Source of the DNA: Tetracentron sinense
Taxonomy: Eukaryota > Streptophyta > Magnoliopsida > Trochodendrales > Trochodendraceae
Direction of reading: 5' to 3'
NCBI GenBank assembly: GCA_015143295.1
Contig: CM026566.1
Span: forward strand, 4,389,072 to 4,453,071
DNA length: 64,000 nt
The notes under the pieces are model-generated. The model was not told where the DNA came from and did not search any database. It saw nothing but the letters and a program-made list of their open reading frames with translations. The translations under genes and the position numbers were made by a program. Each line of letters starts with the position of its first letter. The first letter of the stretch is position 1. This document shows, in pieces, positions 5,948 to 64,000 of the stretch.

Positions 5948-6137
5948 GATTTTAGGTGACCAACCACACATTAATTAACTAAATGGTTGGTGGAGTTCGC
6001 CATATTGACATGCTTTATGCGTGCTAATGTAGAGAATATTTTAGACTTTATTCTTCTTTTTTAAAAAGTCGCTATAGCATAGTTGGCGACTCTACTGAAA
6101 ATTGAACCCAGGAGCTGAACTTACTTTCATTCCACAC

Positions 6138-6698
6138 TCAAAGCTTCACTTGCCTATTAAAAATCCAGCTAAAAGGAATGGTGGGTGTTTCCTTGTCCAT
6201 TCCTTGCACTTTTCCATCCATCCTTTTGATCCTTGCAGCTAATCCACAAACATAGTCTTGAGACTTCCGCCCCTCACTGGAAAGACCTGTTAGCTTCTCC
6301 AAATTCCACCTACCCACCAAAAATTCCAGTATATCAGCATAGTCATTGACTGTGTAGACCCCTAGCCGATGGGCAACTGCCGAGAAGTTTCTAAACAAGT
6401 TATCGTCCTTGCCATCGTACATCAAGTGAGCTGGCATCAAGATATTCTTCCTCATCATGTCTGCAAAAGCTAAGACAGTACCATCTGGATCGATCTCAAA
6501 GAGCTTCTCCACAATCTTGGTGTATGCAGTCTCGTGTCGCTTCTCATCTGCCGCGATGGTACGACATATCTGAGACAGCTTCATGTCCCCATGCTCTTTG
6601 GCAAGTTTGGCAGTGTTCCCATGGGAGATGAAGGTTGCTCTCTCTTGAAATGAAGTGTAGATGAACCCAAGGTAGGGGTTGTTCTCCGTCAGAGGATC
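6138..6698 (-). CDS. SAD: SAD exon 3
   Basis: Runs from acceptor TTTTCACAG|GATCCT to TGA at 6140-6138. It encodes [12 protein letters not shown] through FNRQVKL and includes E228, E261 and H264. [12 protein letters not shown] and the C-terminal [12 protein letters not shown] agree with the family. Confidence 0.92.
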
Positions 6699-9600
6699 CT
6701 GTGAAAAGAGGGGATGGCAAAGAGAGATGCAATAAGGGCCTTAAAAGATTCAATTTCAATTACTGATTGATTTTGGGAAGAGTATTGTATAGAGAAATAG
6801 TGATCATGAAGAGTACAAAAGTCTTTTAACATAATTTGATTCAATCAGTGATAATGCATCTTAAATGGACCGTAGCTCAAAATGACAAATTATGTTTGTC
6901 TAAATCATCATATCAAAACCATTATCTGGAATACAAAATAAATACAAAAATCAATTAAAGAAAGGTATACAGACAATGACAAGAAATGCCATTTATGGAC
7001 TCAGGATCCACCAATATATACTACAAATATTTGGGATCCCCCAATTCAGTCCATCTTCAATAGGGAGAAATCCAGGCCAAAAACTAGCCATTGGATTAAT
7101 GCAACAATCTATCTATTTTTACTTCTTGACAATGTTTTTTTTTGGAAGGTAAAAAAAAAACATTGACAATGTTCACCATGCTTTTCTTGACAACAAATAG
7201 GCATGGACTAGATTGGAAAGTTAAGGGAATCCACTTGGGTCAATATTTAGGTTAGGAAATCCCTAGGCGGGACCTAACGGATGGTGGGCCACAAGTCTTT
7301 GCATGTCTTTTATATCATGGTTGTTAAGGACGTCGCCTGATTCACCTTAGGAGGTCGTCTAGGCGATCAAGCCCATTGTCGTGTTTAGGTGCTACCTGCG
7401 TAGGCAGTCATCAATAAAATCTGATACGTGTAATATTATTATTGTTTTAAGGGTATACAATTCTTTTTATTTAAAGATGACAGTTTGGTCAACAAAAATT
7501 ATGCTATTTTATTATTATATTTAAAAAAAATCTTTTTTAAGGCACAGCTGAGAAGAACAAGGAAGAAAGGAGAAGAGGTATGACCTCTTTCTCTCTCCCT
7601 TTTCTGTCTCTCCTTCCCTCATTTTCAGTAGTCATAGTTGCATATCAGACTATTTTTTTATTCAAACCCACACTCTTCCGCTATCTCCCTCTTCCTCCCC
7701 TCTCTCTCTCATGTTCAGCTATCATAATAGACAATTTTGTTTTTCTATTTTTAACCCTCAGACTCCCTCTCTTTCTCCCATTTAGATAATCATTTTAGAC
7801 TGTTTCTTTTTTAGTTAGGAAACATATTTTTTATTCTCTGCACTTAAAATCTCGATTTATTATTCCTAATACTATCTACAAGAATGATTCTATCAAAACG
7901 CATCTTGACAATGAAGATTTTGCAATATATACAAATTGTAGAGCCTCTTATTCAAGAAAATGCCGAATATACAAATCTTATATTGGGGAGGTTTTTAAGG
8001 TGATGCCTCAGGCGTCCATGCAGTCTGTCTCCTCAAGTCGTTTAGTCAGCTTGACAACCATGTTCCATATGTATTGGTATGTCTTGAAGGCTTCAATTTT
8101 ATCTAATTACAAGAAAATATAAACTTTCTTCATTTCCCATTAATGCATTTTAAATTGTTATCACTCGAAAAGTTGGAAGACTACGAAGAAACTACATTGA
8201 TTGAGAATCATGTAATTTTATATTTTCATGAAATTACAGGCAATAACAATTGAAATCTTGTTTTCATGTTGAAATTCCTTTGGTTTCTTGACGTAAGAAG
8301 CTTTAAAAGTTTAAACTACCATACCACATTAGTTAAACAAAAGCAATAATAAGATTTATAGCAAGGATCATACCATTCCCGACCCAATCAGATATTGAAT
8401 TGTCTTCTCAATTTGCTTCATGTCCACGCGCCCAGTTAGATAGAGGTACTTGTTAAGAAGGTCCCCATGGCGGTTCTCTTCAGCAGTCCATGCCCTTGTC
8501 CAGACTGCCCAAGAAGTGGGACTTGCACCAGTTTCATCCCGGACTCCATCTGCAGTGTTAAGCATTGTTTGGTAAGTTGGAAGGGCTTCTTCCGTGATCA
8601 TATCTCCAACCAAGACAACTAAGTAGTCGTCTGGGATCTCCTTCGACTGCTCCCTCAGTTCCTTGACTTGCTCAATGAATCCTTCTGAGGCGGAATTCGG
8701 TAGGAAATCTTGTGGTTGCCATGACTTCTCAACGGGCTTTAGATGTACCAAGATGTTCTTCTCTGCCCAATCCTCCATGGATTTAAAGATTTCAATCTTT
8801 TGAGGAGGCATAGAGTGGGTTACTTGAACATTAATCTTGCGTGGAGGGTTGTAGGACTTTTTGAGGTTCTCAACGTCCCTAAATCAAGCAAAAAAATCGG
8901 GTTGAGCTGTCGTATTAGCCATATACAGTGGTTCTTACCTCCCCAAAGCCACATATATATCATTCTACTAATAAAAGTACAAGGAGTATGCAAAACTTTA
9001 CTTGGACAAAAATACCCTTTAATTAAAAATATTAACTTTTTAACATAAGGTATCTAATTAAAATATTAGTAGAAGTATAGCATCTTTATAATTCTTAAAA
9101 AAATAATTAGAACCGTGGGAGAGGTTTTGATGGAGAAATACGTAGAAAAGGGGTCATAGAATCCCACTCTAGATAGAGTCCCATTAACTCATATCTATTT
9201 CAAACGTGTGTACTCTCTAACCAACAGTACCGTCTCTCTTATTTGTAAAAGAGTTATCTCTTATCTTATTTGTAAAAGAGTCCTGCATCTCATTGTTACC
9301 TTGTTACCGTATCTCATCTAAAATATATTATGAGTTAACCACAAGAGGGTATCAAGGCTTCAACCACATTGCAGTATATAATCTCACAAGGGGTTCGAGG
9401 GGAGAGAGATACGTGGAAGAGGGAGAGACAATAGGTACTTGCATATTGGATTTCCCTTCTTCAACCTCAGTGCGAAGGATACTTAGACCAACCATCCCTA
9501 ATTATAAGAGCTATAAAGTCGGCGACACTCCGTGCATTTGAGCTTGGTCCGCCTACCACACCTAGCAATCTCTTGGTAAAGCCATAGCAGAAGGAAGAGT

Positions 9601-12600
9601 GTCAGAGACTTGGCCTCACAAAATCCATTGGAGTCAGCAACTTCTCTTGCAAGAAGCTCCAAGAATTGCTCGCCACTGTAACAATCTCTCCCTCCGTCAA
9701 TCAAGTGAGTCATTTTTTTAAAAGTCAAATTAAATCCTAGCATTAAATTTATATGAAAATTTCTGACTTCTATATGAGACCCACTAAATATTTGAACAAA
9801 ATAACTTCAAACCTACTTTGATAATAACTCTATATTATAAATATAGTAATATTTGTTTATATAATTGTTAACAAGTTATTTAGTTAATTAAGTTAGAAAG
9901 TATCTCATCATACTTACTACTAAAATATTAATCATAATTAAATAATTTTAGTATTATTTTAAAATATTATTACATTTTATTAGTAGAAAATTAATACGTG
10001 CTTTGCACGTGCACCTTTACTAGTTATAAACAAACATATAAATATTTTACAATCGAATTCTTTCCTAGGACTAACATGTACGACGCCCATTTTAGGGGTG
10101 GTCTATAGATGCATCTATACATTTGTGTCATTGTGGTTCCAATGTTTAATGGGATGTTTGGATTGGATTTTTTTGGCCAAAAATCAATTTTGGTAAAATT
10201 GACTCCATAGAAATTAATGGTCAAATAATCATTTTTTCAAATAATAGGTGAGTCTCTCAACTTTGAACACTATCATTTGAAAAAATGATTATTTGATCAT
10301 GAATTTCTCCACAATCAATTTTATCATAATGGATTTTTGGCCAAAAAAATTCCAATCCAAACCCCACATAAGTGTTTTGCCCAAAGCAAATCATATCCTT
10401 ATTATTATGGATATTGGAATTTAAATGACCTTATAAGGGGCTGATTTTTAAGTCTGTTATGACACTTTATTTAATGCATTAATATTTAATTTACCATGAT
10501 ATTCTTTTTGTACATCATTATTATTTGGTTATCTAATCAACGATCAGAATGATGATACTAGTGAGTCAACATGGTGCTTGAGTACATGTTCCTTTAAAAG
10601 CCTGAGTTATGAGTGAAAATTGAGGCAGTTTACACTAAAAGCTGTCCACATGAATGACCATCTTCAAATAGGATTTGTACTCATTATTCGCTGGGTGACT
10701 ACATTTGTGAGGATTATGAGTGGGAGCATCACATGGGGGAAAGATTATTTGATTGATCGACAAACCTTGATAGTGCACGCTAGTCGACCGCCACTATTTT
10801 TAATTTCCCTGGATTGGAGAACTGTCTCGGTTCTTGTTAGATAGTATGATCTTTCTCTTGGGCTTGCATGAGACCATATAATAATAGTTTTAATGCAACC
10901 TACCGTTGTGGAGGAGTTAGTATAATTTTGAGAAACACCGAATGAAATTACTAAGAAAATCTCATTATTGTCGCAAATGTTGTAATCTTGAGAAAGTTTA
11001 AATAAACCCGAGAAATTGTTTCAAATCTCTTAAAATTGCAAGCGTTTCTCCTAAAATTAATTTCCATTCATATGTTGTATTAAAAAATGCATTTTCAAGA
11101 AAACAAATCATTGTTCTTGATTTTTTTATGTGAAACAATTTTTTTTTTTAATCATTAATCAAATGAAATATATTAAATATATGCGGAAAACACAAAAGAG
11201 AAGACCTCCAAATGGATTTTATAAGGTTATAAATTCAGAGAAAAAAAGATATGGAAGGAAACAAATACAACTATATCTAAGAACCATGTACTACTAGGGC
11301 AACCCAAAATAGTGTAGGAGATTATCCTAATAACTCATCCAACTCTACTCCCACCTACCAAATAGAGCACCATTCGGAAATGCACAGACTAATAAATGAA
11401 CACTTTCAACTAGGAGTAGAGGATGTGTTATTCCTAATAACTCATCCAACTCTACTCCCACCTGCCAAATAGAGCACCATTCGGAAATGCACAAACTAAT
11501 AAATGAACATTTTCAACCAGGAGTAGAGGATGTGTTATAAAAAAATGCTTATTTCTCATCTTCCATAGTGTCCAAGAATTTCCCCAAGCAAGACTGTCCC
11601 TATTGTCTCCCATGCGCGATTAACAAGAAAAAAGGTTTTGGAAGGAAGAAGGAAAAACACATTCCACACCAAACTAAAGAGGAATTGTCCCCAAATTCCT
11701 AAAAACAAGAGGTGGTGCAATAACAAATGATCTATCGACTCTTCTCCGTTAAGGCACAAAAAATGTGATTTGCCAAACTCTAACCTCAACTTTTCAGAAA
11801 GTTACAAGTGTTTTTTTTTAAAACTAAAAATAGTCATGGAATCATATTATGCAAAATTATGTCGAACCCATCATTCCAAATACTAAAAATCTAATAAACA
11901 AGCGTCAATCACATCCGAATTTCAGCTAAATTACTATATGGAATTCCCATTGTAGGAAATACAAAAGCAGCATTCCTTATTCATCTGTTGAAAAAAAAAA
12001 CATATGCAAACCCTAATTCGACCAAAAAAGGGCATCCACCTCAAAACCCTAGCTTCGTACAGTGCCAGTGCCTGTGTTTCGCGTTGTATCTGATAGTGTT
12101 ATCGGTTCTCATATGGATCCAGTGAGGGATTGGCCTGTTCTATCTCATCTTCTTCGCCAGCTTCTTCTTGATTATGAAGGTTTTATGCGAAGGCATTTTT
12201 GCGTTCGAAGCTCAGCGATGGATGACAAAGGCAACGATCGAAGAGTAGCGCGAAAAACCCTCATGAAGGTTACAAGTAAGAGTCTCATTTAAATTTATTG
12301 TCCATAGGAAAAATACCTTTTGATGAATGTTATGATTCCATACAAGCCTATGAGAAAAAAGAAGACGAGGATTCGTAAGTAAATGATTGTAATAATGATC
12401 TCACTTAAAACCACTTATTTTTTTGCCTCTAGACCAAATCTTATGATCCCTATAATAAGTACGCGGAGAAAGGCTAAGAAATTTAATCAAGTTGAGCAAA
12501 TCATGTAATTTTCAATCATTCAGATCTCATCTCAAACAAGGACACCATATTGTTACGTTATTGGTCATCTCATAATAGTTGCTACTTGAGCATCTCTATT

Positions 12601-15600
12601 GGTGGCCGGTAGGAAAATATTTTCAAAGCTATCCTCCAGACTCGATGGCCACACCACACATCTTTCTAAATTCCAATCTCTGAGTCATTTCTTACCTTAA
12701 ATCTACTGTAAGGTGAGCCAAGCTAGCTACTGGCATGATTACTTTTCACAACACTAGGCCGGATGATCCTCTAACATGTTCTTAAACAGTAGATTCTTCA
12801 TATTTGAAAACTATAACCTTTCTCAATCACTCTCCATTTCCTCCCCAAAACGTTGCACCCACTTCCCGAACAATGCCTTGTTTACCTCCATCGGGGGTTT
12901 CGAGTTTAGATCACCTATCCACTTTGGATGACATACCTTTTTCCACAGGATTAATGATACTTAGCTTTGTCCCCCTTCACATCTAAAGGAAGTCCCTTTA
13001 CAAACATTCAATTCTGGTGGCAATAGAGCATCAAATAGTGAATCTAGAATAAAGTATAGGTTGGTAGATTCCTTGAAGTGCTTTTTAATAAGGTCAATTT
13101 ACCTCCATTAAGAAACTGAGACTATTTCCACCCAGTTAACCTTATGATATTTTCCACAACTGGGGACTAAATGTTTTTGGATTTGAGGCTAGACCTAAGA
13201 GGTAAACCTGGATATCAATTGGCCGGGAGCCTGTTTTTCACCCTAGGCACCTACAATTTCCTCAAATTTTAGAACCTTGCCAATCTTGACTATCTCATTC
13301 TTCTCAAGGTTAAGTTTTACCTCAGACACTGCCTCATAACACCTAAATGGGCATCTCAGATGAACGAGTTGCTGACATGATGCCCCACAAAACACTACAG
13401 TATCATTTGCGAATTACAAATTAGATACCGTCAAATTATTGTTACCTATCCAAAAACCCACAAAAGTTGGGCCACCTACCTTGGATAAAATCTTGCTTAG
13501 AGCTTCCGAAACTATGATAAAAAAAATGGGGATAGGGGGTAATCCTGGCTCAGGCCTCTAGAACTTTGAAGAAACCAACTGAACTTTTATTAATGATAAT
13601 CAACATTATCACAACTGAGATGCAATCTTTCATCTAATTACACCATATTTGAGACCAAAACCAATACTCCACAAAGGTCTAGTGAACATGATCATATGCG
13701 TTCTCCATATCTATTTTGCATGAGATAATCTGCTCATCAACACAGTCATTAAAGTTCGAGAAACCCTTGGATAGCATCTTGAGTGCTTCCAAAACTACGA
13801 TAAACTAAATCGGGATAGGGGATCACCCTATCTCAGGCTTATGGAGCTTTTAAAGAAACCAATTGGACTTCTATTAATGAGAATTGACATCGTCACATCT
13901 GAGATGCATTCTTTCATACAATCACACCATTTAAAACAAAAAAAATTCTCCTCAACATATACTCCACAAAATTCTGGTGAATATGATCATATGATTTCTC
14001 CATATCTATTTCGCAGAAGATACTAGGGTTCTTCTACCTTTTCCACTCGATATTGTCACATTCATTAATTATCAATATTCCATCTTGGATCTATCTTTCA
14101 CCAACAAACACCTCCTATTATGGGGAAATGATTGAGCCCAAAACTCCCTTCAATCGTGAAGCCAACACTTTGGAGAGGATATTGTTTACAATTAATGCTC
14201 ACAAAACTTATAGGTCTAAAATCTCTCAACTCCTAAGCCCTCCTCTTCTTAGAAATTAGGGATACGAATTAATGTGTTATTATGAACTTGTCAAAGTGAC
14301 CAGCATCATAAAACTCTTGCATAAGCGCAAGAAAGTCTGTGCCTAAGTTCTTTCTTTGCTCAGCTGATAGGATTTCAAAAGGGATGCCATCTAGTTTAGG
14401 TCTCCAACAGTGTTTCTCCTAGTACATATCCTTAAAAATAGGAAATAGTATTGTCCTTAATATCATTCCTCTTCTCCCTCCGCACCCCTTCTATTTTAAG
14501 TTTGGAGATTAAATTAGTTTTCCTACGAAAATTCGCAATTATGGGAAACAATTTAGTGTTATGATCCCCTTCTTGAGCCAGCTGATTCTAGATTTCTTTT
14601 TCCATCTAATCTCTTCCATCCTCAACACGTTATAAAATTCCTTTTTTGAGAGCTCCTTATGATCGATTTCTTTAAGGACTACAGACTAGAGTCTTCTAAC
14701 TTGTCTAGATCCTCAATGATCTTGAGAAAGCTTAAAATTCTTGACTTTTGATGAGAAATGTGTGCCTAATTCACATCAGTGGGAGGTTGTTACGTGTATT
14801 TACACTTATATTGAAAGAAAAGCTGGAAGAAAACTTTTTTGCTTTGACTTCTTATAGGAAACTTTGATAAAGGTGGAAGTATCCTTGTTCGAGTTTGACT
14901 AGAGTTGATGGACCAATGTCCACTCTATATAATGTTGAAATATACTCGTTGAATTAATGAATTCCATAAAAGTTTTGGGCAAAGTCGTTAGTGGGATCTA
15001 AATCTTAAAGACGCTAGTGTACATCAGACTTTAAAAAGCTGTGTTTCCTGCAATTTTGTTGATCTACAACACTAAATAAGTATGAGTTTGCTTTGTTTAC
15101 TCATCCGTAGTATCTACATAAAGAATGAGGGGAGGGGGGCATATCATTTGACAAATATAACACTATAGGATATCTACCTATAAATGCTCAATGATCCAAT
15201 CATTCAGTTGTTGGGCCCAATATAAATGCCAAATAAGATGGCCTTATCCGTGATCAATTGCATCATTTTGGTCAACTGGTTTGTCGATACATGATTCTAC
15301 TGCATGAATACCAAGTACAGAATATTCATATGTTATGTTGTAGTATAGCATTAAACATCATCATCAGCCCCTAAATTAGGACACACTGTTGGTAATACAA
15401 TATTATTTTAATTATATATCTTTTCAACAGCCATCATATAAAGATATAAGCATATCATCCTCGATTTTCCAGGGTTAGTGTTTCATAACATTGGTTGTCC
15501 ATGCCTGATAATATGTGTAGGACACCTCAAGCATAGACTTGGTAGGTCAACACAGCTGATATATACCTCTATCTCAAAACATTGTTCAGTACTCTAAATA

Positions 15601-15945
15601 GGCATGTTTGTCATCCTGATGATTAGGATGCCTGCACTAGTGTTATTCTTGGAGTATGGTCCATCTAAGAGGTGGCTCATTAAATAAGGATTCGTGTTAT
15701 CATTTGCTGCATTGTATAAGATTCATCCACAAGACAAGCCGAGCTCCTAAAAGAATATCAGTTGGCCATGCAAAAGAAATGTGAAGAGAAGAAGAGTCAT
15801 CGAATACTCTAAAAAAAACTCACTTAGAGCTGGATTGGGTGGAAGCCATGATAAGCTTTGGAGATCTGAGATTGACCGCTGAAGCAAGATGAAGAGACGA
15901 GAACTTCTGACATGAAATGACGAGGGGATTCAGTTTCAGAGCCAT
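6138..15945 (-). CDS. SAD: Stearoyl-ACP desaturase (plastid), intact
   Basis: This is the soluble plastid diiron enzyme that puts the first double bond into acyl-ACP, normally 18:0-ACP to 18:1 delta9-ACP using ferredoxin. Three exons (15945-15824, 8878-8374, 6698-6138) join in phase to 395 aa, against 396 in castor. Residues 1-33 are a Ser/Leu-rich transit peptide ([17 protein letters not shown]...) ending LIM|AST. The iron ligands are all present: E137, E175 and H178 (EENRH), E228, E261 and H264 (DEKRH). All splice sites are GT/AG. Intron 1 is 6.9 kb and intron 2 is 1.7 kb. Several positions differ from castor (mature numbering from memory): L118 is Ala, R180 is Leu, G223 is Arg, D280 is Arg. 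L118 and D280 are known from mutagenesis to affect chain length or regiochemistry, so the exact substrate is uncertain. The sister copy at 34334-51235 is dead. Confidence 0.93.
7319..8060. mobile_element. TIR element in SAD intron 2
   Basis: The left end GGTTGTTAAGGACGTCGCC and the right end ...CTTGACAACC are inverted and imperfect. Copy B keeps only the right end (about 35540-35592), which explains much of the intron length difference. The interior is AT- and CT-rich with no transposase, so it is non-autonomous, possibly hAT-like. Confidence 0.5.
8061..8373. other. SAD intron 2, first part
   Basis: Ordinary AT-rich intron that also aligns with copy B. Nothing else is seen in it. Confidence 0.5.
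8374..8878 (-). CDS. SAD: SAD exon 2
   Basis: Runs from acceptor GATTTAG|G (the base completing Lys41) to ATG|GTATGA. It encodes DVENLKK through QYLIGSGM and includes E137, E175 and H178 of the diiron site. The substitution Leu to Ala at residue 150 (castor position 118) is here, codon GCA at a place where copy B has TTA. Confidence 0.92.
8966..10023 (+). mobile_element. Non-autonomous Helitron in SAD intron 1
   Basis: The right end carries the Helitron signature: a hairpin ACGTGCTTTGCACGT (9996-10010) about 10 bp before a terminal CTAG followed by T (10020-10024). The left end is placed at TTCTACTAATAAAAGTACAA by resemblance to plant Helitron starts and is less certain. No Rep/helicase sequence is present. 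It lies within 100 bp of the exon 2 acceptor and is absent from copy B's intron. Confidence 0.55.
10151..10365. mobile_element. Foldback MITE
   Basis: The terminal inverted repeats start GGGATGTTTGGATTGGATTT and end ...TCCAATCCAAACCCC. The arms stay complementary for most of their length (TTTTGGCCAAAAAT, AAATAATCATTTTTTCAAAT). No clear target duplication was found. Lies in SAD intron 1, absent from copy B. Confidence 0.65.
10366..11539. other. SAD intron 1 spacer
   Basis: No gene. An imperfect direct repeat of about 120 bp sits at about 11320-11530 (CTAATAACTCATCCAACTC twice). Confidence 0.4.
11540..11830 (-). pseudogene. L1 LINE C-terminal zf-RVT fragment
   Basis: The minus-strand frame reads [20 protein letters not shown] then [13 protein letters not shown]. 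This is the CxxC...HLLLHC-type zinc-ribbon (zf-RVT) that ends plant L1-type LINE ORF2 proteins, with key Cys residues lost. It lies in the same orientation as the reverse-transcriptase remnant further upstream on the minus strand and is probably the tail of the same insertion. Confidence 0.6.
12000..12295 (+). other. Unidentified ORF fragment
   Basis: Preceded by CCCTAA-rich leader-like DNA (AAACCCTAATTCGACC, AAAACCCTAGCTTCG), a frame from 12062 reads [17 protein letters not shown] and [17 protein letters not shown]. The base composition is more gene-like than the surroundings and the text looks like protein, but I do not recognise it. It may be a captured gene fragment or the 5' end of a retroelement. 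Confidence 0.3.
12985..14905 (-). pseudogene. L1 LINE reverse transcriptase remnant
   Basis: Read on the minus strand in shifting frames, the fragments appear in the correct ORF2 order: [17 protein letters not shown] (about 14580), [13 protein letters not shown] and [17 protein letters not shown] (about 14400-14290), GFFKSSRG and [16 protein letters not shown] (about 13580-13490), [12 protein letters not shown] (a decayed FADD catalytic box, about 13400), then [17 protein letters not shown] (about 13330-13280). Stops and frameshifts are frequent. The 5' part (14290-14905) is also in copy B at 36390-36920, so the insertion predates the duplication and copy B later lost the rest. Confidence 0.7.
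13490..14000. repeat. Internal duplication within the LINE remnant
   Basis: About 230 bp at 13490-13720 is repeated at 13755-14000, including TTGGATAAAATCTTG / TTGGATAGCATCTTG, ATCATATG and TCTCCATATCTATTT. The reverse transcriptase segment around SEALSKI is therefore present twice. Confidence 0.65.
14906..15823. other. SAD intron 1, first part
   Basis: Non-coding and collinear with 36920-37230 plus 50398-51128 in copy B. The sequence GATATCTACC|TATAAATGCTC (about 15170-15190) corresponds to the site where copy B carries the 13.2-kb CACTA element. Confidence 0.6.
15824..15945 (-). CDS. SAD: SAD exon 1 (transit peptide)
   Basis: Starts at the ATG at 15945-15943 in the context GAAAAATGGCTCTG and encodes 40 codons plus two bases, ending TCTAA|GTGAGT. 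The start is supported by the family's MALKLNP beginning, which copy B shares. Confidence 0.92.
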
Positions 15946-16000
15946 TTTTCTTCAGGTTTTTGCTTTTTCTTTCCTCAACAGAACAGAGAGAGATGCGCCA

Positions 16001-16010
16001 ATTAAATAAG
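16001..16010 (-). promoter_or_regulatory. Candidate TATA box of SAD copy A
   Basis: On the minus strand CCTTATTTAATTGGCG lies about 60 bp upstream of the ATG. Copy B has the same CTTATTTAAT word at the same place (51281-51290). The short distance leaves room for only a brief 5' leader. Confidence 0.4.
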
Positions 16011-16154
16011 GTAGGCAACAAAACATTGCCTCTTGTTTTCAATAAAAATTACACTACTGCCCATTTTTAGCTTTTAAACCTTCACCAAATTAATGATACT
16101 TACCTTTTATAAAATTAAAGTATGCATGTTATCTTAGATTTAATAGTTCGAGAT

Positions 16155-16340
16155 TTTTTTTAAAAAGGAAAGTGATTGAAAACTTTACTATCAAGAGCTG
16201 GCCGCCCAATTAAAAATTCAACAGCATCAAGATGTACAAGCATGCACAAGTATTAAATGGTGAGCCCCACTTTATGTTTGGCACTATTAAATTTTCAATC
16301 ACTCTCTCGAGTACTATCGGGAGCTTTAAATCACTTCCAT
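16155..16340. mobile_element. MITE family M, copy 1
   Basis: Inverted ends GGAAAGTGATTGAAAACTTTA and GGGAGCTTTAAATCACTTCC, with ACTATC/GATAGT cores, enclose about 140 bp that includes CCCAATTAAAAATTCAACA. The family has four copies in the window: here, 16690-16865, 53020-53165 and 53663-53850. Confidence 0.55.
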
Positions 16341-16604
16341 TTTTTAAAAATTAATTTGGCACTCGACACATGGTCAGGCTGCAATCCCAATTACTTTGGT
16401 TAGCATTTATTCTAGTTAGGTAATGTACATATCAATTGTCACACACATGGTAAGAAATTATTCCCTATCTACCTTTTTTTTTTGGGTAGCCATTTCTTAT
16501 CTACTTGAAGTGAGGGATAACAACACTCTGGTGGAAATCATCTGTTGTATATCATTAAAACACTATTTGAAATCATCTATTGTATTTCTTTAAAATTGTT
16601 CACT

Positions 16605-16632
16605 CACGTGCATTGCACGTGCCTTCCACTAG
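16605..16632 (+). mobile_element. Second Helitron 3' terminus
   Basis: CACGTGCATTGCACGTG (16605-16621) followed by CCTTCCACTAG and T repeats the hairpin-plus-CTAG|T signature seen at 9996-10023. The 5' end could not be placed; the element may be short and begin after 16500. Confidence 0.5.
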
Positions 16633-16689
16633 TAAAATTAATTTGGTATGCCGGTTATCTTAGATTTAATAGGTTAAAAATTTATTTAA

Positions 16690-16865
16690 AGGAAAATAAT
16701 TGAAAGCTATACGATGGAGAGTTGGGACACCCAATTAAAAATCCAACAACATCAAGACTTAGATGCATTAAATGGTGGGACCCTACTTTATGTTTGGCAT
16801 TGTTGAATTTTCAATCAAGAGGCCTAACTCTCTCGATAGTACTACTATCGAGAGTTTTAAATTGA
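16690..16865. mobile_element. MITE family M, copy 2
   Basis: Same terminal words as copy 1. The right end carries a perfect hairpin, CTCTCGATAGTACTACTATC then GAGAG (16829-16853). Confidence 0.55.
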
Positions 16866-17130
16866 GTAGTGATAGGTGTATCCATGAATTCCATTTCAAA
16901 ACTTAAGGCATCACCTATTGGTGGATGCCTCCCTCTTAAATGCTCACCACATGGGTACATTAACTATTTCCCTTTTAAATTACTTCCCTTCTTTTAAAAC
17001 AATTTTGGCACCTGGCCAGGCAATCCCATTTACTTTGGTTAGCATTTATTCTAGTTAGGCAATGTACGTATCTATTGTCACACACATGTAAAGAAGTTAT
17101 TCCTTATCTACTATTTTTTTGGGTAGCCTT

Positions 17131-18309
17131 TTCTTATCTACTAGTTGTGAGGGATAACAGCACTTTGGTGGTGGCCAAATAGGAGTTACTAGATTGCTAT
17201 AATGAGGGCTCACATCTCAACAACTCATTTGTCTAACTTTACTTTAGATATTTGATGAAAAAAACTTTATATCAATGCCATTTAGCCAGATGCATAATAT
17301 ATTAACCACCAAATTGCCGTCATGAGTCATGACTAAAATAGGGTCCAAGAACTGATTTTTGATGTCGTCAACCAAATAGAATTCTTGGAAGAATTCCGTT
17401 TTGAATTGGCACATTTTTGTTTAAATATTACCCTTAATCCTTTTTAAAGTTGTGATCAGTTCGGTATATCTTCTGTTGCATTGCTTAAAATGGAGCCTCC
17501 CAATCTGATGAAGTGGTGGAAGATGTATGCAAAAATTTAAGGGTATTTTATCTGAAAAGATTTCTCTTTTAAGTTTATCAAATTTGTGTTTTTTTCTCTC
17601 ACTAAGATATAGATATAATTCTAAGAACCCTTATAACGTACTTTGAAGTTGAAAAGTTGGCAAAAAGGAAGCCAATTTGACTCCAATATTAATTTTTTTG
17701 GGTCACCGAACAAAAATTGTAAATTGTGATAGCATGAAGAATGCTAAGCATAGTCTCATAATCCCTACTTCACCCTTTTTAGATAATAATAAAAAAAATG
17801 AATGCATTATATGTGTATTATACATGAATGAACGAAATTATTAAAATATTTTTTTTCATCATATTTTTTAAATATAATAAATAATATATCAATTTGTTAC
17901 TACACACGAATAATGGACATATTATACGTGTTTTTATACTATATGTCTTAGAAAATCCATTCAAAACTGTATAATTGTACTTTCTATTATCTTGTTACTC
18001 ATCTTGATTTTTTTTCTTCATTGAATATGCCAGTGTGAGTTTTGACTCTCGTCACCTCCTCTTCATATTCTTTTACTTACCGCCAAACTAGTCACAGCTT
18101 TGTGCTATCGTTGTGAGTTTTCCATGAGTAAGTTCCCTCTCAATTTCCTTTAAGAGCTCGATTTATCTCATCGTTGAATTCTAGGTATTGCTTCTTTCTC
18201 ACTACCACATTATTTTTAGAGAAAGAAAAAACAATTCTCATTCTCACGACCATCTACAAGACCTTCACTTATTCTTTAACCACATAATTTTTCCCAACAT
18301 TCTCTAAGA
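17131..18309. other. Distal upstream region of SAD copy A
   Basis: Non-coding. 17270-18200 aligns with 55760-56586 in copy B (ATGCCATTTAGCCAGATGCAT, CACCTCCTCTTCATATT, AGAGCTCGATTTATCTCAT). The stretch around 17255-17275 is approximately the empty site of the MULE found in copy B. Confidence 0.55.
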
Positions 18310-18740
18310 AATAATTGCTTTAATTTATCCCTAAAATCTTATCTCTTCAAATGCTATGAAGGAAAATATATGTAAAATAAAATTCTCATACTCAAATCTC
18401 TATTTTATTCATTAATTTAGAGTTTATTTTTTTTAGGATCTTAAAATTTTTGATTTATTGTTCAGAAGTGTTCACACCCATTTTTTGCACGGTTCATTCT
18501 AGAGAATTCCTATAATTTTCTCACATAATTGCTTTAATTTATCCCTAAAATCTTTCTTATCTCTTCAAATGCTATGAAGGAAAATATATGTAAAATAAAA
18601 TTCTCATACTCAAATCTCTATTTTATTCATTATTTTAGAGTTTATTTTTTTAGGATCTTAAAATTTTTGATTTATTGTTCAGAAGTGTTCACACCCATTT
18701 TCTGCACGGTTCATGCTAGAGAATTCCTATCATTTTCTCA
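18310..18740. repeat. ~215-bp tandem duplication
   Basis: Two nearly identical direct copies (about 18310-18528 and 18529-18740), both containing ATAATTGCTTTAATTTATCC, AAATGCTATGAAGGAAAA and AGAAGTGTTCACACCCATTT. A short ORF in the second copy is a by-product. Confidence 0.85.
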
Positions 18741-19004
18741 CCAAAAAATAATATTAATAACTTAAATTTGAAAAATTACCCTTTTAAAATTAAATCTGAT
18801 TTTTTTAAAAAAATATTTTAATAATTTTTCATAATTTCAAAAATTACCAAAATGCCCCTAACCTTTTAAAATTACCAAAATACTCCTAGGGTTCAAAACC
18901 AATCAAACTTTTCAAAAATTCTTTTACAGGTCATGTTCTCTCTTAAAATTGATTCCCTCTTTTAACTGAAAATAAAACCACTGCGGAAACAGTGTGGACG
19001 AAGT

Positions 19005-19690
19005 TAGACTCGGCAAGCTATACCTAAATTGTGACGTTGTGTATCGTGAGAGGCGCTCACGTTTTTTGGCTTGAGCGCACTTCGGATTTTCAGCTCTCTA
19101 CTATGTCTAGATCTGCTGCTCCTGGGTCTACCGGGTATGGAAAAAAAGTACATTATAGTAACAATACTAATAGTATTGTTACTATAGTGTACTTTTTTTT
19201 CTAGTAACAATACTATTAGTATTGTTACTATAGTGTACTTTTTTACTACAGTGTACTTTTTGCGGATCCCTTTACCAGGAGATTCCTTGAGATACCAAAC
19301 CAAGATAGAACCGAAGGTTCCTCCCTCCCTTTTCTATGAAAAAGTACACTATAGTAACAATACTATTAGTATTAAAAAAGTACACTATAGTAACAATACT
19401 AATAGTATTGTTACTATAGTGTAGTATTGTTACTATAGTATACTTTTTTTAACAATACTAATAGTATTGTTACTATAGTGTACTTTTTAAAAAAAGTATA
19501 GTAACAACACTATTACTATAGTGTACCTTTTTAAAAAGTACACTATTGTAACAATACTATTAGTATTGTTACTATAGTGTACTTTTTAAAAAAAGGAGAA
19601 AACAGATAAGTGACTATGAGGGAGAATCCCCTTCTAGTTTATAATTATATTCCTGCCCTTATGATAAAAGCAATGCGAGGGCACCGGTAA
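19005..19690. other. Organelle-like segment, left part
   Basis: Moderate-GC, non-coding DNA around a hairpin cluster, with text such as CTGCTCCTGGGTCTACCGGG and CGGATCCCTTTACCAGGAGA. Its style resembles plant mitochondrial intergenic sequence and differs from the AT-rich surroundings. The same hairpin recurs at 23203-23240, so this and 22175-23500 may be one segment split by an LTR element. No organellar gene was recognised, so the origin is inference. Confidence 0.35.
19141..19590. repeat. Cluster of 55-bp hairpin palindromes
   Basis: About seven or eight copies of a palindrome with 26-nt arms, containing GTACACTATAGTAACAAT and its complement, around a 3-nt centre that is AAT in some copies and ATT in others, so copies lie in both orientations. 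The first (about 19142-19197) and the last (19533-19587) are nearly complete; others lack part of one arm or abut directly. Each would extrude as a very stable hairpin. Confidence 0.9.
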
Positions 19691-19839
19691 TTGAGTATGT
19701 AGAGACCTTGAATCTTTTTCATGTTTTTACTTCATTGTATTAGGGGTATTATAGTCCTTATGATGTTTTGATGTTTATTGTATTATATATTTATTTGGTG
19801 TGGTGTAAACTAGGCTTAATCAAACTTGTGACGGAGGGA
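19691..19839 (+). mobile_element. Retroelement 3' internal remnant with PPT
   Basis: Short stretch ending GACGGAGGGA immediately before the LTR start, a plausible polypurine tract. If correct, the following LTR is the 3' LTR of a truncated element. Confidence 0.4.
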
Positions 19840-20189
19840 TGTCATATCACACCCTAAACTTTAGGAAGCTCTAGTTTTGGTACCGTTTACTGGAATTGAG
19901 TGATTCTTGAACCATTAGAAAGGTGTTGGAACCCTCTTCGAAGTTCATGTTTAATGTTTTTCCTTATTTTGAGTTTAAGCCAAGTCAATGGTGGGTTTTA
20001 TCTAATGGAATTGTAGATTAGTCAACTTTGGGGACAATTTAGTCTATTAATTAAGTGGAATTTAGAAATTCTAAAATGCTAAAAATGTTCGTTTTCGAAA
20101 GACGAATCCAACGCAAGTTGAATCGTCGAAATCCGACGAACGAGTTAAAAGTTATGGCCGAAACAGTAAATCGGGTCAAAAATCTGTAG

Positions 20190-20378
20190 GCAACCGATCG
20201 CTCGGTCAGAAGTAGCGATCGATCGGTCCAAAACCGATCGATCGGTATCTATCGACTGGTCCAGAATTTTGTATGGGGAAAATTTCCAGAGAGTGCTTTT
20301 TTGACCGATCGCCCGGTCAAGAGCACCGATTGCTCGGTTGAGAACCGATCGATCGGTCATAACCACCGATCGCTCGGT
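20190..20378 (+). promoter_or_regulatory. ACCGATCGATCGGT palindrome array
   Basis: Seven or eight 14-bp palindromes, exact or nearly so: ACCGATCGATCGGT at 20233-20246 and 20344-20357, with CTC, CCC or TGC variants at 20193, 20304, 20325 and 20365. They are spaced irregularly over 190 bp and end about 65 bp upstream of the TATA box, in the U3 promoter. The sister LTRs carry a different palindrome at this place. Confidence 0.85.
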
Positions 20379-20443
20379 CTTTCGTGATTTTTACAGAATT
20401 TTAGTATGGGCGTTTTGGTCTTTCTGTTCTCAGACCTTGGGGC

Positions 20444-20450
20444 TATAAAT
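20444..20450 (+). promoter_or_regulatory. LTR TATA box
   Basis: GGCTATAAATAGGGGG, a strong plant TATA box. GAGGAGAAAACCTAGGG-type leader sequence follows about 60 bp downstream. Confidence 0.75.
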
Positions 20451-21350
20451 AGGGGGTCCTACTCGAAATATTAAAATACTCTACCTATTTCTAACCTAAT
20501 TTGGCAAAAAGGAGGAGAAAACCTAGGGTTTGAGGGAGAGGGTTGCTTGGAGAAGAAGGAGGTTGCTAGAAGATTGAGAGGAAAGCTTGGAGATCGTCCT
20601 CAAAACTTCTCCAAATCTCCTCGGGAGCGTTTTGAATCCAAGGGAAGGATTCCTAAGGTCGATATACTATCCTAATCAACTCTATTTTAATGTTTTGTGA
20701 GTATTAATTTGATAGAAATGATAAAATAAAGATTAAATGCATTTTTCCCAAATTTTCTATGAAGTAAGCTAATTATTGATGGAAATGTGGATGGAAATAT
20801 GGATTGGATGTGGATAGAATATATGGAGGATGGGAAATGTATGGAGGATGGGATTAATATGTGGATGTGAATAGTGAATTGATTGTATGGATGAATTATG
20901 GTTTGATGGATGCTTGAAAATATAGAGGGGAAATGGATTCATATTATGTGTACATAAGGTGTTTGTGAAAATGCTTGAAAAGATAAATGTTATTATACTC
21001 TTATGAAATGGTGGTAAATTGATTATGAATTGCGATATGAATTATGATAAGATATGTATATGTGAATTGTTTGTTAAGTATGTCTAATTATTTGCATGGA
21101 AATTGATAGTCGGGAAGGTAAGAACTTAGAGGAACATCTCTCAAACCGGGAATTCTCTAACTATTTGGTATGGGACAGTATAGTGGAGTTTCCAAGGTGG
21201 GAGATCGAAATCTAAGCAATTACCAACTCGAATGTTAATTTCGACACTTAAGCATATATGCACGTGTATGTTAAGATAAGAGTCTCACAAGTCACACATG
21301 TGGACCACAAGCATGAGCATGACATACGTATGACATTCTGAATAAGCATG

Positions 21351-21484
21351 AGCATGGTCCCTATCCGCCAAGAACGGCATGTCAATTACATTTGATTCAT
21401 AGGCATGGTCCGTATCCGCCAAGAACGGCATGTCAACCATTTGATTCTTAGACATGGTCCGTGTCCGCCAAGAACGGCATGTCA
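21351..21484 (+). repeat. ~58-bp tandem repeat in the LTR
   Basis: Three copies of a unit with GCATGGTCCGTATCCGCCAA and GAACGGCATGTCAA in the U5 side of the LTR, next to shorter AGCATAAGCA repeats to 21560. The two neighbouring family members have unrelated repeats in the comparable half. Confidence 0.8.
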
Positions 21485-22174
21485 CATCATTGTATGATCT
21501 GAATAAGTGCATAAGCATAAGCATCTCACAAGCACGTGGTCTCATAAGCATAAGCAACTCATAAGTGTATTGTCTTCCAAGTCTAAGATTCTCACAAGTA
21601 CACGAGTCAAGGTGATGATATGATGTATATGCGCACACGTTCTTCCGCACTCTGATTTTGCTATTATGTTATTGGATATGTTTCTAACTAAGTGCAGGTA
21701 TATTATTATTGTTGGTTGGATTTTATATACACTGAGTACCTTTGTACTCAGCCAGACTTTGTCTTGGCAGGTTTAGAGCAGGAGTACACGGCGGAGCCGT
21801 GGGTTGAGGAAACATACGCAGAGGAAGGAGGTGAAGGTGAGCCTTCTGAGGAGGGAGCCAAAGACTTGGGTGGCTACACCTCTTAGTTTTTATTTCATTT
21901 GATTGAGAGAGTTGTATTAGACTTGAGTAGATGTTGCTTAGTGGACTTTTTTTTAGTTGTGTATCAGACTCTTTGGTTTTAGAGTGAGTTGTATATGTTT
22001 ACCGTAGACTTTTGCTATTTGATTATAGTTTATATATCGGAAATTTCATTATCCTCATTTTTGGAGACTCGTGTTAGTGTGCCTTGCATGTCATGGATTT
22101 TAAGCAGGTTAAGTAAGGTGGCGATCCTAAAGTCCTATTTTAGCCTTGTAGGATTTTGGGGTCATTACAGAGTA

Positions 22175-23500
22175 TTCTCCGCAATCCCTAAGAGCATCTA
22201 CTTTTTACAGATGCAGCAGTTGATGCTTGTTTGACTTTTTACACATCCCTCTTGTTCCGACTTTCGGTACATACCTACCTAAGCTATCAGTAGCAGTCCC
22301 AGGTCCAGTATAAGCATCTGAACGCTGGTTGGTAAACTAATATAATACGTCCTTAGTTAACATTCAATCTCCCCGGGACGCTAAAATCTTATCTTTTATT
22401 TATTGTATTATATATATAAGAGATATAAAATCATTCTACCGTACTCCAGGCTTCGCCCTTCGATTGGTTCGATTGTTGTGTTTAGTCGCTCTTGTGAGAG
22501 ATAGGGATAATAGAGACAAGGAACCACCGCCCTTGTCATGGGCCTACTTGGTGCCCTACCTAAACCGACTTTATTTGGAAACTACGGCTTTCCTTCTTTA
22601 GTAACAAGTTGTAGTAACAAGGCTTGTTCAAACAAAAGATCAGAGGCGGTCAATGAACTATTGATTTGAAAGCGTAATCCGGGCTAATATGTCCAAGCGG
22701 TCATCTGTGGCAAAGGCTTTTGTAACTGTGTCTAAATTCTTTTTTTGAATTGTAAATAGAGCTACTTTCCCTCTTCTTCCTTCTATCTCCTACCCTTAAG
22801 TATTTGTATACTGGTAATGGTAATTAGTCTGTAGGCCTTTGTTAGCCAACTTATAGGAAGGTAAAGGAAGGTAGCATGGTTATAGCATGGGCAGGCAATC
22901 GCCTGTTAGCGAATTTTTATCTGTAACGGTAAGAGCATTAGTCAACCATCTGTCGCAATAGCAGTAGCCTTCCCTGCTCCTTATACTTATCAAGCCTTGA
23001 CTTTGATCAATTTCCTCCAACAAGCTTTTCCAGTGCTTTCCTTTTAGCTTGGGCTATTTTTCCGTGAATACACCGTCCTTAATCTTTTCCGTGAGCTATG
23101 GTTCTCTTCTTTGAAATAAGATCTCTCCATTCCTGTATTGTATCACTACTAAGGTAAGGGTAGCATCAGGAATTGGGAAAGGGCTGGCGCAATCAAATCA
23201 GTACAATACTATTAGTATTGTTACTATAGTGTACTTTTTTTGCAACAACTCAAATCACGTATCCCTACCCTTATTGACTTAAAGCTAGCAGCCGGATGGC
23301 TCCTCATTTTGTTTTGTTAGAATACTCCTTAGAGAGGACTAAACTAACTAAGCTACTAAAGGCTATGCGTCAGCAGAAAGGAGGAGGAGACGGAATGCTG
23401 TATTTCGAATATGTGTCCTCTCTCCTTACCCCCATTCCAGACTAGACATTCCAGAAAGAAGATCCAAGAACACAAAACCCAAGCTCCTTCCATGATCAAG
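22175..23500. other. Organelle-like segment, right part (possible NUMT)
   Basis: Mixed-composition DNA without transposon features, for example CTCCCCGGGACGCTAAAATC, CCACCGCCCTTGTCATGGGC and AGCAGCCGGATGGCTCCTC, in the style of plant mitochondrial intergenic DNA. It contains one copy of the hairpin found at 19141-19590. No mitochondrial gene was recognised, so the call stays tentative. Confidence 0.4.
23203..23240. repeat. Isolated copy of the 55-bp hairpin
   Basis: ACAATACTATTAGTATTGTT followed by ACTATAGTGTACTTTTTTT: one full arm and a shortened left arm of the hairpin clustered 3.6 kb to the left. Confidence 0.85.
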
Positions 23501-24190
23501 CTCCTGCATGTCACCCTTTTAACACCCCTGCGTGTCCTTGACATCCTGTATGCTCCTTGAAAATCTCAGCAGACCGCAGCATTACCTCCTGCATGTCACT
23601 CTTTTGACACCCCCGCGTGTCCTCGACATCTTGTATGCTCCTTGGCAATCTTGTTATACTGTAGCATTACCTCTTACATGTCACCCTTTTGACACCCCCG
23701 TGTGTCCTCGACATCCTGTATGCTCCTTGGCAATCTCACCATACCGCAGCATTACCTCCTGTATGTCACCATTTTGACACTCCCGCGTGTCCTCGACATC
23801 TTGTATGCTCCTTGGCAATCTTGCCATACTGCAACATTACCTCTTGCATGTCACCCTTTTGACACCTCCACGTGTCCTCGACATCCTATATGCTCCTTGG
23901 CAATCTCGCCATACCGCAGCATTACCTCCTGCATGTCACCTTTCGATACTCTGTGTGTCTTCGACATCCTGTGTGTACCTTTACAGTGTACACCACCTGC
24001 ATGTCCTCCTCTTCGACACCCCCGTGTGTCCTTGACATCCCGTGTGTACCTTTACAGTGTACACCACCCGCATGTCTCCTTTCGTCACCCTGTGTGTCCT
24101 CGACATCCTGTGTGTACTTTTACAGAGTACACCATTCGTATGTCCCTTTTTAACACCCTGTTTGTTCTCGATGCCCTACGTGTCTTTTCG
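23500..24190 (+). repeat. 85-bp and ~70-bp tandem repeats
   Basis: About five copies of an 85-bp unit (GCATGTCACCCTTTTGACAC, CGTGTCCTCGACATCCTGTA, TGCTCCTTGGCAATCT) run to about 23950. About four shorter units then share the GTGTCCTCGACATCC core but carry GTGTACCTTTACAGTG. The array lies just upstream of a polypurine tract and LTR, which is where Tat-type Ty3/gypsy elements typically carry tandem repeats. Because 85 is not a multiple of three, all three plus frames stay open; the 188-codon ORF is an artefact. Confidence 0.85.
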
Positions 24191-34333: not shown

Positions 34334-34890
34334 TTAAATTTTCACTTGTCTGTGAAAAATCCAGCTGAAAGGAATGGTGGTTCCTTGTCCCTTCCTTGCA
34401 CTCTTTCATTCATCTTTTTGATCCTTGCAGCTAATCCGCAGACATAGTCCTGAGACTTCCGCCCCTCACTGGAAAGACATGTTAGCTTCTCTAAATTCCA
34501 CCTACACACCAAAAATTCCAGTATATTGGCATAGTCATTAATGTGTAGACCCCTAGCCGATGGGCAATTGCTGCGAAGCTTCTAAACAGATTGTCATCCC
34601 TGCCATCGTACATCAAGTGAGCTGGCATTGAGATATTCTTCCTCGTCATGTCTGCAAAAGCTAAGACAGTATCATCTGGATCGATCTCAAAGAGCTTCTC
34701 CACAATCTTGGTGTATGCAGTCTCGTGGCGCTTCTCGTCTGCGGCAATGGTATGACATATCTGAGATAGCTTCATGTCCCCATGCTCTTTGGCAAGTCTG
34801 GCTGTGTTCCCGTGGGAGATGAAAGTTGCTCTCTCTTGAAATGATGTGTAGATGAACCCAAGGTAGGGGTTGTTCTCTGTCCGGGGGGTC
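34334..34890 (-). pseudogene. SAD: SAD pseudogene exon 3
   Basis: Opens GACCCCCCGGACAG with one C too many, reads [20 protein letters not shown] through HRLGVYT, shifts frame, and recovers in other frames as [20 protein letters not shown] and FSW..RQVKI before TAA at 34336-34334. Confidence 0.88.
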
Positions 34891-35898
34891 CTATGAAAAT
34901 ATGAAGAAAAGAGTTAGAAGTCAAGAACTTAAGATAATTAGGAAATACTAGGGATGGCAAAGAGAGATGATATAAGGCTCTTGAAGGATATGAAAGACTT
35001 CTCTGTTCCCACAAAATTCAATTCCAATCAGTGACTCATTCTGGAGAGAGTAGGCATTGTACAGAGAAATAAGAGAGACCTTGAAGAGTACAATAGTCTT
35101 CTATCATAATTCGGTTCAATCAGTGATATGCATCTTATATGGATTGCTAAATAAATACACAATTTCAATTGCAGAAAGGTAGACATAGATAGCAACAAGA
35201 AATTCTATTTATTGACTTAGATCCACCAATGTACACTACAAAATTTTGGATCCCGTATCTTTAAATGGGGGAATTCCAGGCCAAAAACTGACCATTAAAT
35301 TAAGGCAACAAATCTATTGTAACTTCTTCACAATGGTCACCACCTTTTCCTAACAACAAATAGGGATGGACTAGATTGGAAGGTTAAGGGCATCCACTTG
35401 GGTAAATGTTTAGGTTAGGAAATCTCCTAATAGCGGTTTTACAATTTATATGAATTATAGGACCCTTATTTAAGAAAATACAGCATATACAGATCTCACA
35501 TTAGGAAAATTTCTACTTCATGGAGTTCAATAGGCGATGCCTCAAACGTCCATAAGGTCTATTTCCTCAAGTCACCTTGACAACCATGTTCCATATGTAT
35601 TGTTATGTCTTGAAGGCTTCAATGGTTGTCTATAATTACAAGAAAAGTTAAACTTGCTTGATTTCCCATCAATGCATTTTCAATTGTTATGACTTCGAAA
35701 GTTGGAAGACTAAGAGGAAACTGCATTGATTGACAATCAAGCAAGTTTATATTTTCTTGAAATTACAGACAATAACAATTGAAAATTTTTCCATGTAGAA
35801 ATTCGATTAGTTTCTTGACATAAGAAGCTTTGGAAGTTTCAACTGCCATACCACACTAATTGAACAAAAAACAATAAGATTTGTAGCAAGAATCTTAC

Positions 35899-37230: not shown

Positions 37231-37239
37231 CACTATAAG

Positions 37240-37885
37240 AAAACATCCGATCAGCGACGGAAATTTTCCGTGCTTGATATCGGATTTCCGTGCCTGATTC
37301 TCATTAGACACGGACATAAGAACCGTGTCTAAACCGTCTCAATTGCTCGCGTCACTGATGCTACTAGACGCGGAAAACATTTTCCGTTCCTAATACTATT
37401 ATTAGAGACGGAATTTTTCCCGTCTCTAATTAGAATTATTGAAAATGCGAAAACATTAATGACGTCACATTTTTCCGTGTCTAATATTCTTATTAGACAT
37501 GGATATTTTTCCGTAAATATCTGGCACGGAAATAATGCCGTATCGAATACGTATTAGGCACAGAAAAATGACCGTATCTAAATAGAACTGAGACGGAAAC
37601 ATCTCCGTGCCTAATACATATTAGACATGGAAATATTTCCGTGTCTAAACATATCTGATACGGAAATAATTCTGTGTCTAATAGGTATTAGGCACAGACT
37701 TTTTTCCGTCTCTCATGCTATCATATTGGAAACGGAAAAATGAGAGACAGATAAATTTCTGTGTCTAATACCTATTAGACACGGAATTATTTCCGTGTCT
37801 AATACTATTTTACACGTTTATACACATCCGTCCCAATTAACATCAGACACAGAAATTAATCCGTCTCTAATACTTAAATTTTTTT
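37240..37885. repeat. CACTA 1 subterminal repeats, left
   Basis: More than a dozen copies, in both orientations, of a word near TTAGACACGGAAATA and its complement TTTCCGTGTCTAATA, often paired as TCCGTGTCTAATAnnnATTAGACACGGA-like hairpins. In En/Spm elements such repeats bind the element's own protein; that role is inferred here. Confidence 0.85.
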
Positions 37886-38337
37886 TTTCAACAGCCTGCT
37901 TTCAAGAAAACCTGTAACCTGTATTCAAACATTTCACATCATAGACAAATTCATATCCAAATCTATACATTCCACATCCACATCCATAAATATATCTATC
38001 AATTCAATGTCCTTTGTAAATCTACTTTTAAAACAGTCTTGTCATGTTTATCACGCAAAGACAACTCCGATGCAACAGCATTGCATGTCTTCGAAGGTCC
38101 TCCCGAGCAGCATCTGTCGATCCCTAGTTCTCCCCTAGCTTTTCCTTGTCTCAATAGTGCTATGACATTGTTCTCATACTCCCCTAGTACCTGAAAGCCA
38201 AGCATTCAATTACCTTGAATCAATATTTGAAACGTTGGATGAGAAGTAATATAATGTTATTGGAGAATCCAAAAGAATAATCGGTGGGATTATTACACTT
38301 TATGATGTTTATTAGTGAATGTAAAAAATGCATACAT
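37886..38337. other. CACTA 1 spacer
   Basis: Non-coding, no feature recognised between the subterminal repeats and the satellite-like array. Confidence 0.4.
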
Positions 38338-40135: not shown

Positions 40136-40250
40136 TACTTGGATACCACACACCACCACCCATCCATCACCACTATCACCACCTACGACCACTACCACCA
40201 CCACTACCATCACCTACCCACTACCACTACTACCACCAATAACATGCAAA
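40136..40250. repeat. CCA/CAC-rich simple repeat
   Basis: Imperfect ACCACCACTACCATCACC-type repeats directly after the 179-bp array. The same pairing occurs in CACTA 2. Confidence 0.9.
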
Positions 40251-50114: not shown

Positions 50115-50385
50115 AAGGTATTAGACACGGAAATATTTTCGTGTCTAAAGATCGTAAAAAATAGACACGGAACAAATTCCGTCTCTGAAATCAATATCCG
50201 TGTCTAATCGTATTAGATACGGAAAATATTTCGTCTCTCATAAATGCAATATTCAGCAAAATTATATAAATATTGAAATCAACATTAGAAACGGAATATT
50301 AGACACGGATACATTTCCGTGTCTAAAAATAGTTATTAGACACGGAAATGGATCCGTGTCTAAAATTTCGTTTCTATCCCGAAGA
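50115..50385. repeat. CACTA 1 subterminal repeats, right
   Basis: Repeats of TTAGACACGGAAATATTT-type words in both orientations, the same family as at 37240-37885, next to the inverted terminus. Confidence 0.85.
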
Positions 50386-50397
50386 TTTCTTGTAGTG

Positions 50398-59265: not shown

Positions 59266-59279
59266 GGGCTAATCCATAC

Positions 59280-63910: not shown

Positions 63911-64000
63911 CGGGTTGCCTGAATCACGCAGTAGTTGGACCTATTTGAAGGCCAAGATGCAATTAATTCAAATTGCAAACATTAATAATGGGATGGCAAC

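Follow-up and report, generated by a model that had tools for sequence, protein, structure and literature searches.

What kind of element has left a cluster of short, AT-rich hairpins in a nuclear-looking piece of a plant genome, and by what route did it arrive there? The hairpins lie in a 64,000-nucleotide stretch of Tetracentron sinense DNA (assembly GCA_015143295.1, contig CM026566.1, positions 4,389,072 to 4,453,071, forward strand), which is called the window below and to which all coordinates refer. They form two arrays, A (19141–19261) and B (19339–19594), plus a damaged lone copy, C (23201–23241). The explanation that we prefer, tentatively, is an organelle-type palindromic repeat, to be compared with the palindromic repeated sequences (PRSs) of rice mitochondria, which was carried in by transferred DNA and whose arrays grew by slippage and template switching.

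Structure of the hairpin unit and its arrays

The unit is AT-rich and self-complementary, 55–59 letters long, and is made up of a consensus arm, A(5-8)GTACACTATAGTAACAATACTA, a single base (A or T) and the reverse complement of the arm. Whole arms measure 27–30 nt. The centre reads ACTA-A/T-TAGT, and folding draws a 3-nt loop there. A first-pass annotation, made from the letters of the window, had described 26-nt arms around a 3-nt centre, AAT or ATT; its alternation of A and T and, in the folded form, its three-nucleotide loop are borne out, while the true centre is one base and the whole arms are longer. Nine units are contained in the arrays and one in the lone copy, at three sites with unrelated flanks, as follows.

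19141..19200, hairpin A1: complete palindrome with centre A at 19170 and one C-to-T change in the left arm
19202..19243, hairpin A2: centre T at 19216, lacking the outer half of the left arm
19244..19261, piece A3: right-arm end only, no centre; forms a period-18 tandem repeat with the end of A2
19262..19338, inter-array spacer: unrelated host sequence, 77 bp
19339..19373, hairpin B1: left arm with centre T at 19366; 7 nt of the right arm remain
19374..19423, hairpin B2: nearly complete around its centre A at 19402, lacking the last 7 nt of the right arm
19424..19450, piece B3: right arm alone, no centre; repeats the right arm of B2 in tandem, with period 19
19451..19488, hairpin B4: centre A at 19461, outer left arm missing
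19489..19532, hairpin B5: degenerate, centre T, with deletions within both arms
19533..19594, hairpin B6: complete palindrome with centre T at 19560 and, behind it, a 7-A tail (19588–19594)
23201..23241, lone copy C: right arm whole, 11-nt deletion in the left arm, centre T at 23212

The cluster had been taken as packed into 450 bp. Near-perfect AT-rich palindromes are indeed present within 19141–19594, but in two arrays, separated by the spacer, for which the self-comparison of the window lists no further copy of at least 60 bp. The earlier count of "seven or eight" palindromes agrees with the eight centres found (A1, A2, B1, B2, B4, B5, B6 and C; A in three, T in five), but only three of these palindromes keep both arms at a length of at least 20 nt, the remaining units being truncated or degenerate. 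The observation that arm truncations abut new copies is confirmed, as the truncations of A2, A3, B1, B2, B3 and B4 are located at unit junctions; B5 and C have internal deletions instead. Inside the arrays, tandem repeats with periods of 18, 19 and 36 suggest slippage; the insertion of the hairpin into itself that had also been proposed is not evident from the sequence. Just upstream of the hairpins, a 217-bp sequence is present in tandem duplicate (18311–18741, about 95% identity).

The copies have diverged little. Across 19 arm pieces, six of the 402 aligned bases are substituted with respect to the consensus (insertions and deletions were left out of this count), and these are at six different positions, as would be the case for copies from a common source. 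In A1 and in B6 the changes are confined to one arm, and the arms are therefore not currently kept alike. An A- or T-run terminates the repeat at five of the six outer edges (both edges of arrays A and B and the right edge of C), from which it follows that the unit has defined ends.

The hairpins are real and are not a product of chance. Where 0.73 matches to the 14-mer CACTATAGTAACAA (up to two mismatches) are expected, the window has 15, a number reached in none of 100 shuffles; 13 matches are in the cluster, one is in copy C and one is an isolated two-mismatch match at 421. The window contains no further convincing copy of the unit. Between 18601 and 20100 there are three palindromes with arms of at least 20 nt (up to two mismatches and a loop of up to 7), and not one of 200 first-order Markov surrogates contains any. 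Elsewhere in the window two others pass the same test, at 50299–50363 and 51949–51993. The folds of A1 and B6 have z-scores of about -10, and the region 19120–19620, folded as single-stranded DNA, reaches -136.9 kcal/mol (z -23 against 100 shuffles). The extra copy previously placed near 23203–23240 is present, at the slightly wider coordinates of C, but is a poor hairpin, not distinguishable from chance, with 18 of 200 shuffles folding equally well or better. An assembly artefact was considered and rejected. The window contains no N, and missed adapters are not expected to give small, alternating, truncated hairpins such as these.

Edges of the copies and the host stretch

A search for target duplications, advised in the first-pass annotation, gave a negative result: at the exact outer edges of the three sites there is no direct repeat of at least 2 bp; the longest at A and B measures 1 bp, and C has none. 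When the edges are allowed to slide by up to three bases, A and B show only 3–4-bp matches rich in G and A, and C still shows no match. Among plant transposon families, Stowaway elements duplicate TA, Tourist elements TWA, hAT elements 8 bp and Mutator elements 9 bp and longer; the terminal motifs of Stowaway and Tourist are CTCCCTCC or GGGCC. A TA or TWA duplication, as left by these two families of miniature inverted-repeat transposable elements (MITEs), is absent at all three sites, at two of which the edges belong to composite arrays. Neither terminal motif is present, the ends of the unit being A- and T-runs.

The arms hold CACTA...TAGTG, and a relation to CACTA transposons was considered and discarded, as flanks and termini do not fit. 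Beside this core the flanks are GTA and TAC instead of a 3-bp target duplication, and no terminus is held in common with the local CACTA element (37231–50397), which ends in CACTAYAAGAAA. Emptied of their arrays, sites A and B would both read TATG/GG, and the third site does not. A common empty site TATGGG was likewise set aside as weak: the chance of such an agreement is 0.7% for one given pair and about 2% over three pairs, and it is absent at the third site. The flanks joined without both arrays give an open frame of 54 codons, which was treated as a coincidence; it has no Pfam match and three weak PDB matches, the best with an E-value of 0.27.

Between the arrays and copy C lies a segment that is probably a solo long terminal repeat (LTR), beyond which the host sequence presumably continues.

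19698..22169, + strand, probable solo LTR: 2472 bp, TGTAGAGACC...GGTCATTACA, with GAGTA on both sides; no part of the hairpin element
22175..23500, presumed continuation of the host stretch: unusual composition, possibly of mitochondrial origin; its right bound is given by tandem repeats starting at 23501

The segment has TGTA/TACA ends and is flanked by GAGTA at 19693–19697 and 22170–22174. Among the 396 TG...CA pairs in the ranges searched, it is the only one with a 5-bp duplication. Related sequence is found at 2354–1707 and 56588–57234, and the LTR-like copies start alike, with TGTAGAACCCCGGATC at 2355 (minus strand) and CGTAGAACATCGGATT near 56587, although in its first part the segment at 19698 is the shorter one. 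Its support as a probable solo LTR is moderate. If it is real, A, B and C were once contained in a single host stretch of about 2 kb, with about 1.1 kb from B to C. The probable LTR itself contains ACCGATCGATCGGT-type palindromes (20193–20378).

The composition of the host stretch was determined on 1565 bp, with hairpins and LTR removed and the left bound, 19041, chosen by eye, and was compared with that of 142 overlapping stretches, each of this length, taken elsewhere in the window. Its GC content (0.422) is above that of 121 of the 142. The observed/expected ratio of AG/CT, 1.257, exceeds that of 137 stretches and the ratio of TA, 1.02, that of 133, while GA/TC (1.01) is above 51 and TG/CA (0.854) above only 7. 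Plant mitochondrial DNA has high AG/CT, near-neutral TA and no excess of TG/CA, and the composition of the host stretch may thus be called mitochondrion-like, a likeness to these general properties and not to a reference set.

That last qualification is one of several points that weigh against a mitochondrial origin and against the continuity of the host stretch. The CG ratio is ordinary (0.61, above 93 of the 142 stretches), and the seven stretches with lower TG/CA come from three AT-rich places in the window. The host stretch, part of whose frames were sent to Pfam, yielded no recognisable mitochondrial gene, tRNA or RNA family. These frames (9 of 16 from 22169–23510 and one of four from 18941–19138) matched only CRAM_rpt, with an E-value of 0.051, below the cut-off, and Rfam returned no matches at E-values up to 0.5 for the region 22170–23500. 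Collections of plasmids, phages, viral contigs and prokaryote genomes gave no match, which says little, none being plant collections; here BLAST was used for the cluster against plasmids and for 22169–23500 against plasmids and phages, and exact-pattern scans of viral contigs and genome contigs returned 0 stretches. As to continuity, when the same search is placed at random, it yields a 5-bp duplication between TG and CA ends in 33% of cases; with 4-nt inverted ends added, as in this segment, the chance level of such an LTR-like pair is 3.4%. Since a duplication like GAGTA is common by chance, the solo LTR and the continuity of the host stretch rest also on the likeness to the starts of the related LTRs.

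Genomic setting of the window

The window looks like plant nuclear DNA, "plant" being taken from the transposon families and from general knowledge; within these nuclear-looking surroundings the immediate host stretch may be organelle-derived. Pfam matched seven of ten window proteins and left three without a match. A fatty acid desaturase domain (FA_desaturase_2) is encoded at 6141–6740, 8371–8883 and 34494–34913, Transposase_21 at 45248–46201 and 46205–46984, and DUF4216 at 43586–44287 and 63530–63940. No tRNA is found in the window, and no Rfam family reaches its gathering score there.

The CACTA element at 37231–50397 has both of its ends, CACTATAAGAAAAC/CACTACAAGAAATC, and a CAT target duplication. 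It contains minus-strand transposase pieces, a tandem array of ten 179-bp repeats (38338–40131) and palindromic repeats near both ends (37517–37802 and 50284–50376). The 179-bp tandem repeat is found again at 58546–59272, and together with the DUF4216 piece at 63530–63940 this may represent another CACTA element, cut off by the end of the window. The regions 5996–18202 and 34192–56586 are collinear, with about 77–92% identity, so that the two desaturase gene regions form an old segmental duplication; the second copy ends at 56586, at the start of LTR-like DNA. The host stretch is followed immediately, at 23501–24171, by tandem arrays whose units, of 85 bp and 68 bp, are rich in GCATGTC and GTGTCCTCGACATCC.

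Origin of the repeat and comparison with known hairpins

A small palindromic element of the kind found in organelle genomes, as already suggested in the first-pass annotation, is the best-fitting reading, because the repeat has discrete ends, occurs at three sites with unrelated flanks, carries scattered substitutions and contains tandem repeats in its arrays, and because there are no direct repeats at the edges, all sites fall in one stretch (if the solo LTR is accepted) and this stretch has an unusual composition. The short AT-rich palindrome would have reached the nucleus inside transferred, probably mitochondrial, DNA. In the donor genome the unit would have spread as a discrete hairpin that inserted without target duplication, the most likely mechanism being error-prone break repair or template switching at the extruded hairpin, and the arrays would have grown from neighbouring copies by slippage and template switching at hairpins and A/T runs. 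The flips of the single-base centre could have arisen by the hairpin loop inverting in place or by copies landing in either orientation. Later, an LTR retrotransposon probably split the host stretch and left the solo LTR behind.

The main rival explanation is a nuclear hairpin MITE, that is, a miniature DNA transposon with nothing left but its two terminal inverted repeats, several insertions of which landed into or beside each other. We consider it doubtful. It would explain inverted repeats with defined ends, the three sites and the scattered private mutations, nesting is common among plant MITEs, and the nuclear genome does have DNA transposons, the CACTA element with both its ends among them. 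None of the duplications expected from the family rules is seen (TA, TWA, 8 bp or 9 bp and longer), although one may have been lost, the arrays being composite; the GTA and TAC flanks of CACTA...TAGTG speak against a CACTA derivative, as do the different termini of the local element, CACTATAAGAAA/CACTACAAGAAA. Purely local amplification, in which one chance palindrome was expanded by hairpin-templated copying and slippage with no real mobility, is quite unlikely. It agrees with the confinement of all copies to 4.1 kb (or about 1.6 kb once the probable LTR is subtracted), with the tandem repeats in the arrays and with the neighbouring 217-bp duplication, but does not readily explain the isolated copy C, with its unrelated flanks, or the A- and T-runs that end the repeat at the outer edges. 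A functional hairpin, serving as a signal for transcript processing or termination or as a small-RNA precursor, is very improbable. The sequence-level analyses gave no evidence of a function. Points in its favour are the very stable fold of 19120–19620 and 47 Rfam matches at E-values up to 1, mostly to microRNA families (best E-value 7.7e-07). These matches are spread over many unrelated hairpin families and are all below the cut-offs, none reaching the gathering score, and are therefore taken as generic, as from any long hairpin; moreover, most copies are truncated or degenerate.

The unit resembles hairpin repeats known from mitochondria and plastids. The PRSs of rice are reportedly 60–66 bp long, with ten or so copies. 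They share with the present unit the form of a short palindrome (here near-perfect at three of eight centres and with one stem-loop per unit), a likeness of form and not of compared sequences, and they are dispersed with unrelated flanks, as are the three sites described here, all within 4.1 kb. The present copies differ in being in a nuclear-looking contig and partly in small arrays. The PRSs (Nakazono 1994) are cited as potentially mobile in passages of PMC2800124 and PMC4478555. In the plastome of the chlamydomonadalean Chlorosarcinopsis eremi, palindromes with an AT-rich stem and a 3-nt loop show loop inversion and clustered indels, according to excerpts of PMC7043297, and the present unit has these features in common with them. 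However, the algal stems are 8–13 nt long, against 27–30 here, there are hundreds of copies, against nine units and a lone copy, and lineage and compartment are different. Palindromic repeats of green algae, regarded as mobile, are also cited in PMC7235400.

Hairpin elements of sponge mitochondrial DNA and double-hairpin elements of Allomyces, as treated in sections of PMC2800124, likewise occur as single or tandem hairpins with incomplete copies, and the Allomyces elements are cited there as lacking flanking duplications; these are animal and fungal mitochondrial sequences, likened by description and not by sequence. The mitochondrial GC clusters of yeast (GC42, PMC4478555) are also palindromic, tens of base pairs long and made of units that merge and shuffle, whereas the present unit is AT-rich. 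PMC6385970 mentions the mobile Bpu element of Cycas as well as nested palindromes in some algal mitochondrial DNAs, and optional palindromes in two Fusarium mitochondrial DNAs are taken as a sign of mobility in an excerpt of PMC7218506. Plant MITEs (Stowaway and Tourist) are short and have terminal inverted repeats like the present unit, which differs in having no TA or TWA duplication, none of the family terminal motifs and no internal sequence. A literature text search found no match for six words of the host stretch, nor for four 15-letter words of the unit, which shows only their absence from the printed text searched.

To our knowledge, it is unsettled whether short organelle palindromes are mobile as elements or expand through faulty repair. 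DNA transposition, RNA intermediates and error-prone repair have been proposed for different ones (PMC2800124, PMC4478555, PMC7043297). It is possible, if unlikely, that the unit represents an unnamed AT-rich hairpin element of plant mitochondria, spreading without target duplications and perhaps preferring a TATGGG-type site, of which this nuclear fossil would keep the intermediates of array growth. If the unit is a nuclear MITE, it is an ordinary one. If it came in with a nuclear insert, the whole, half and doubled hairpins preserved side by side would be a readable record of such intermediates.
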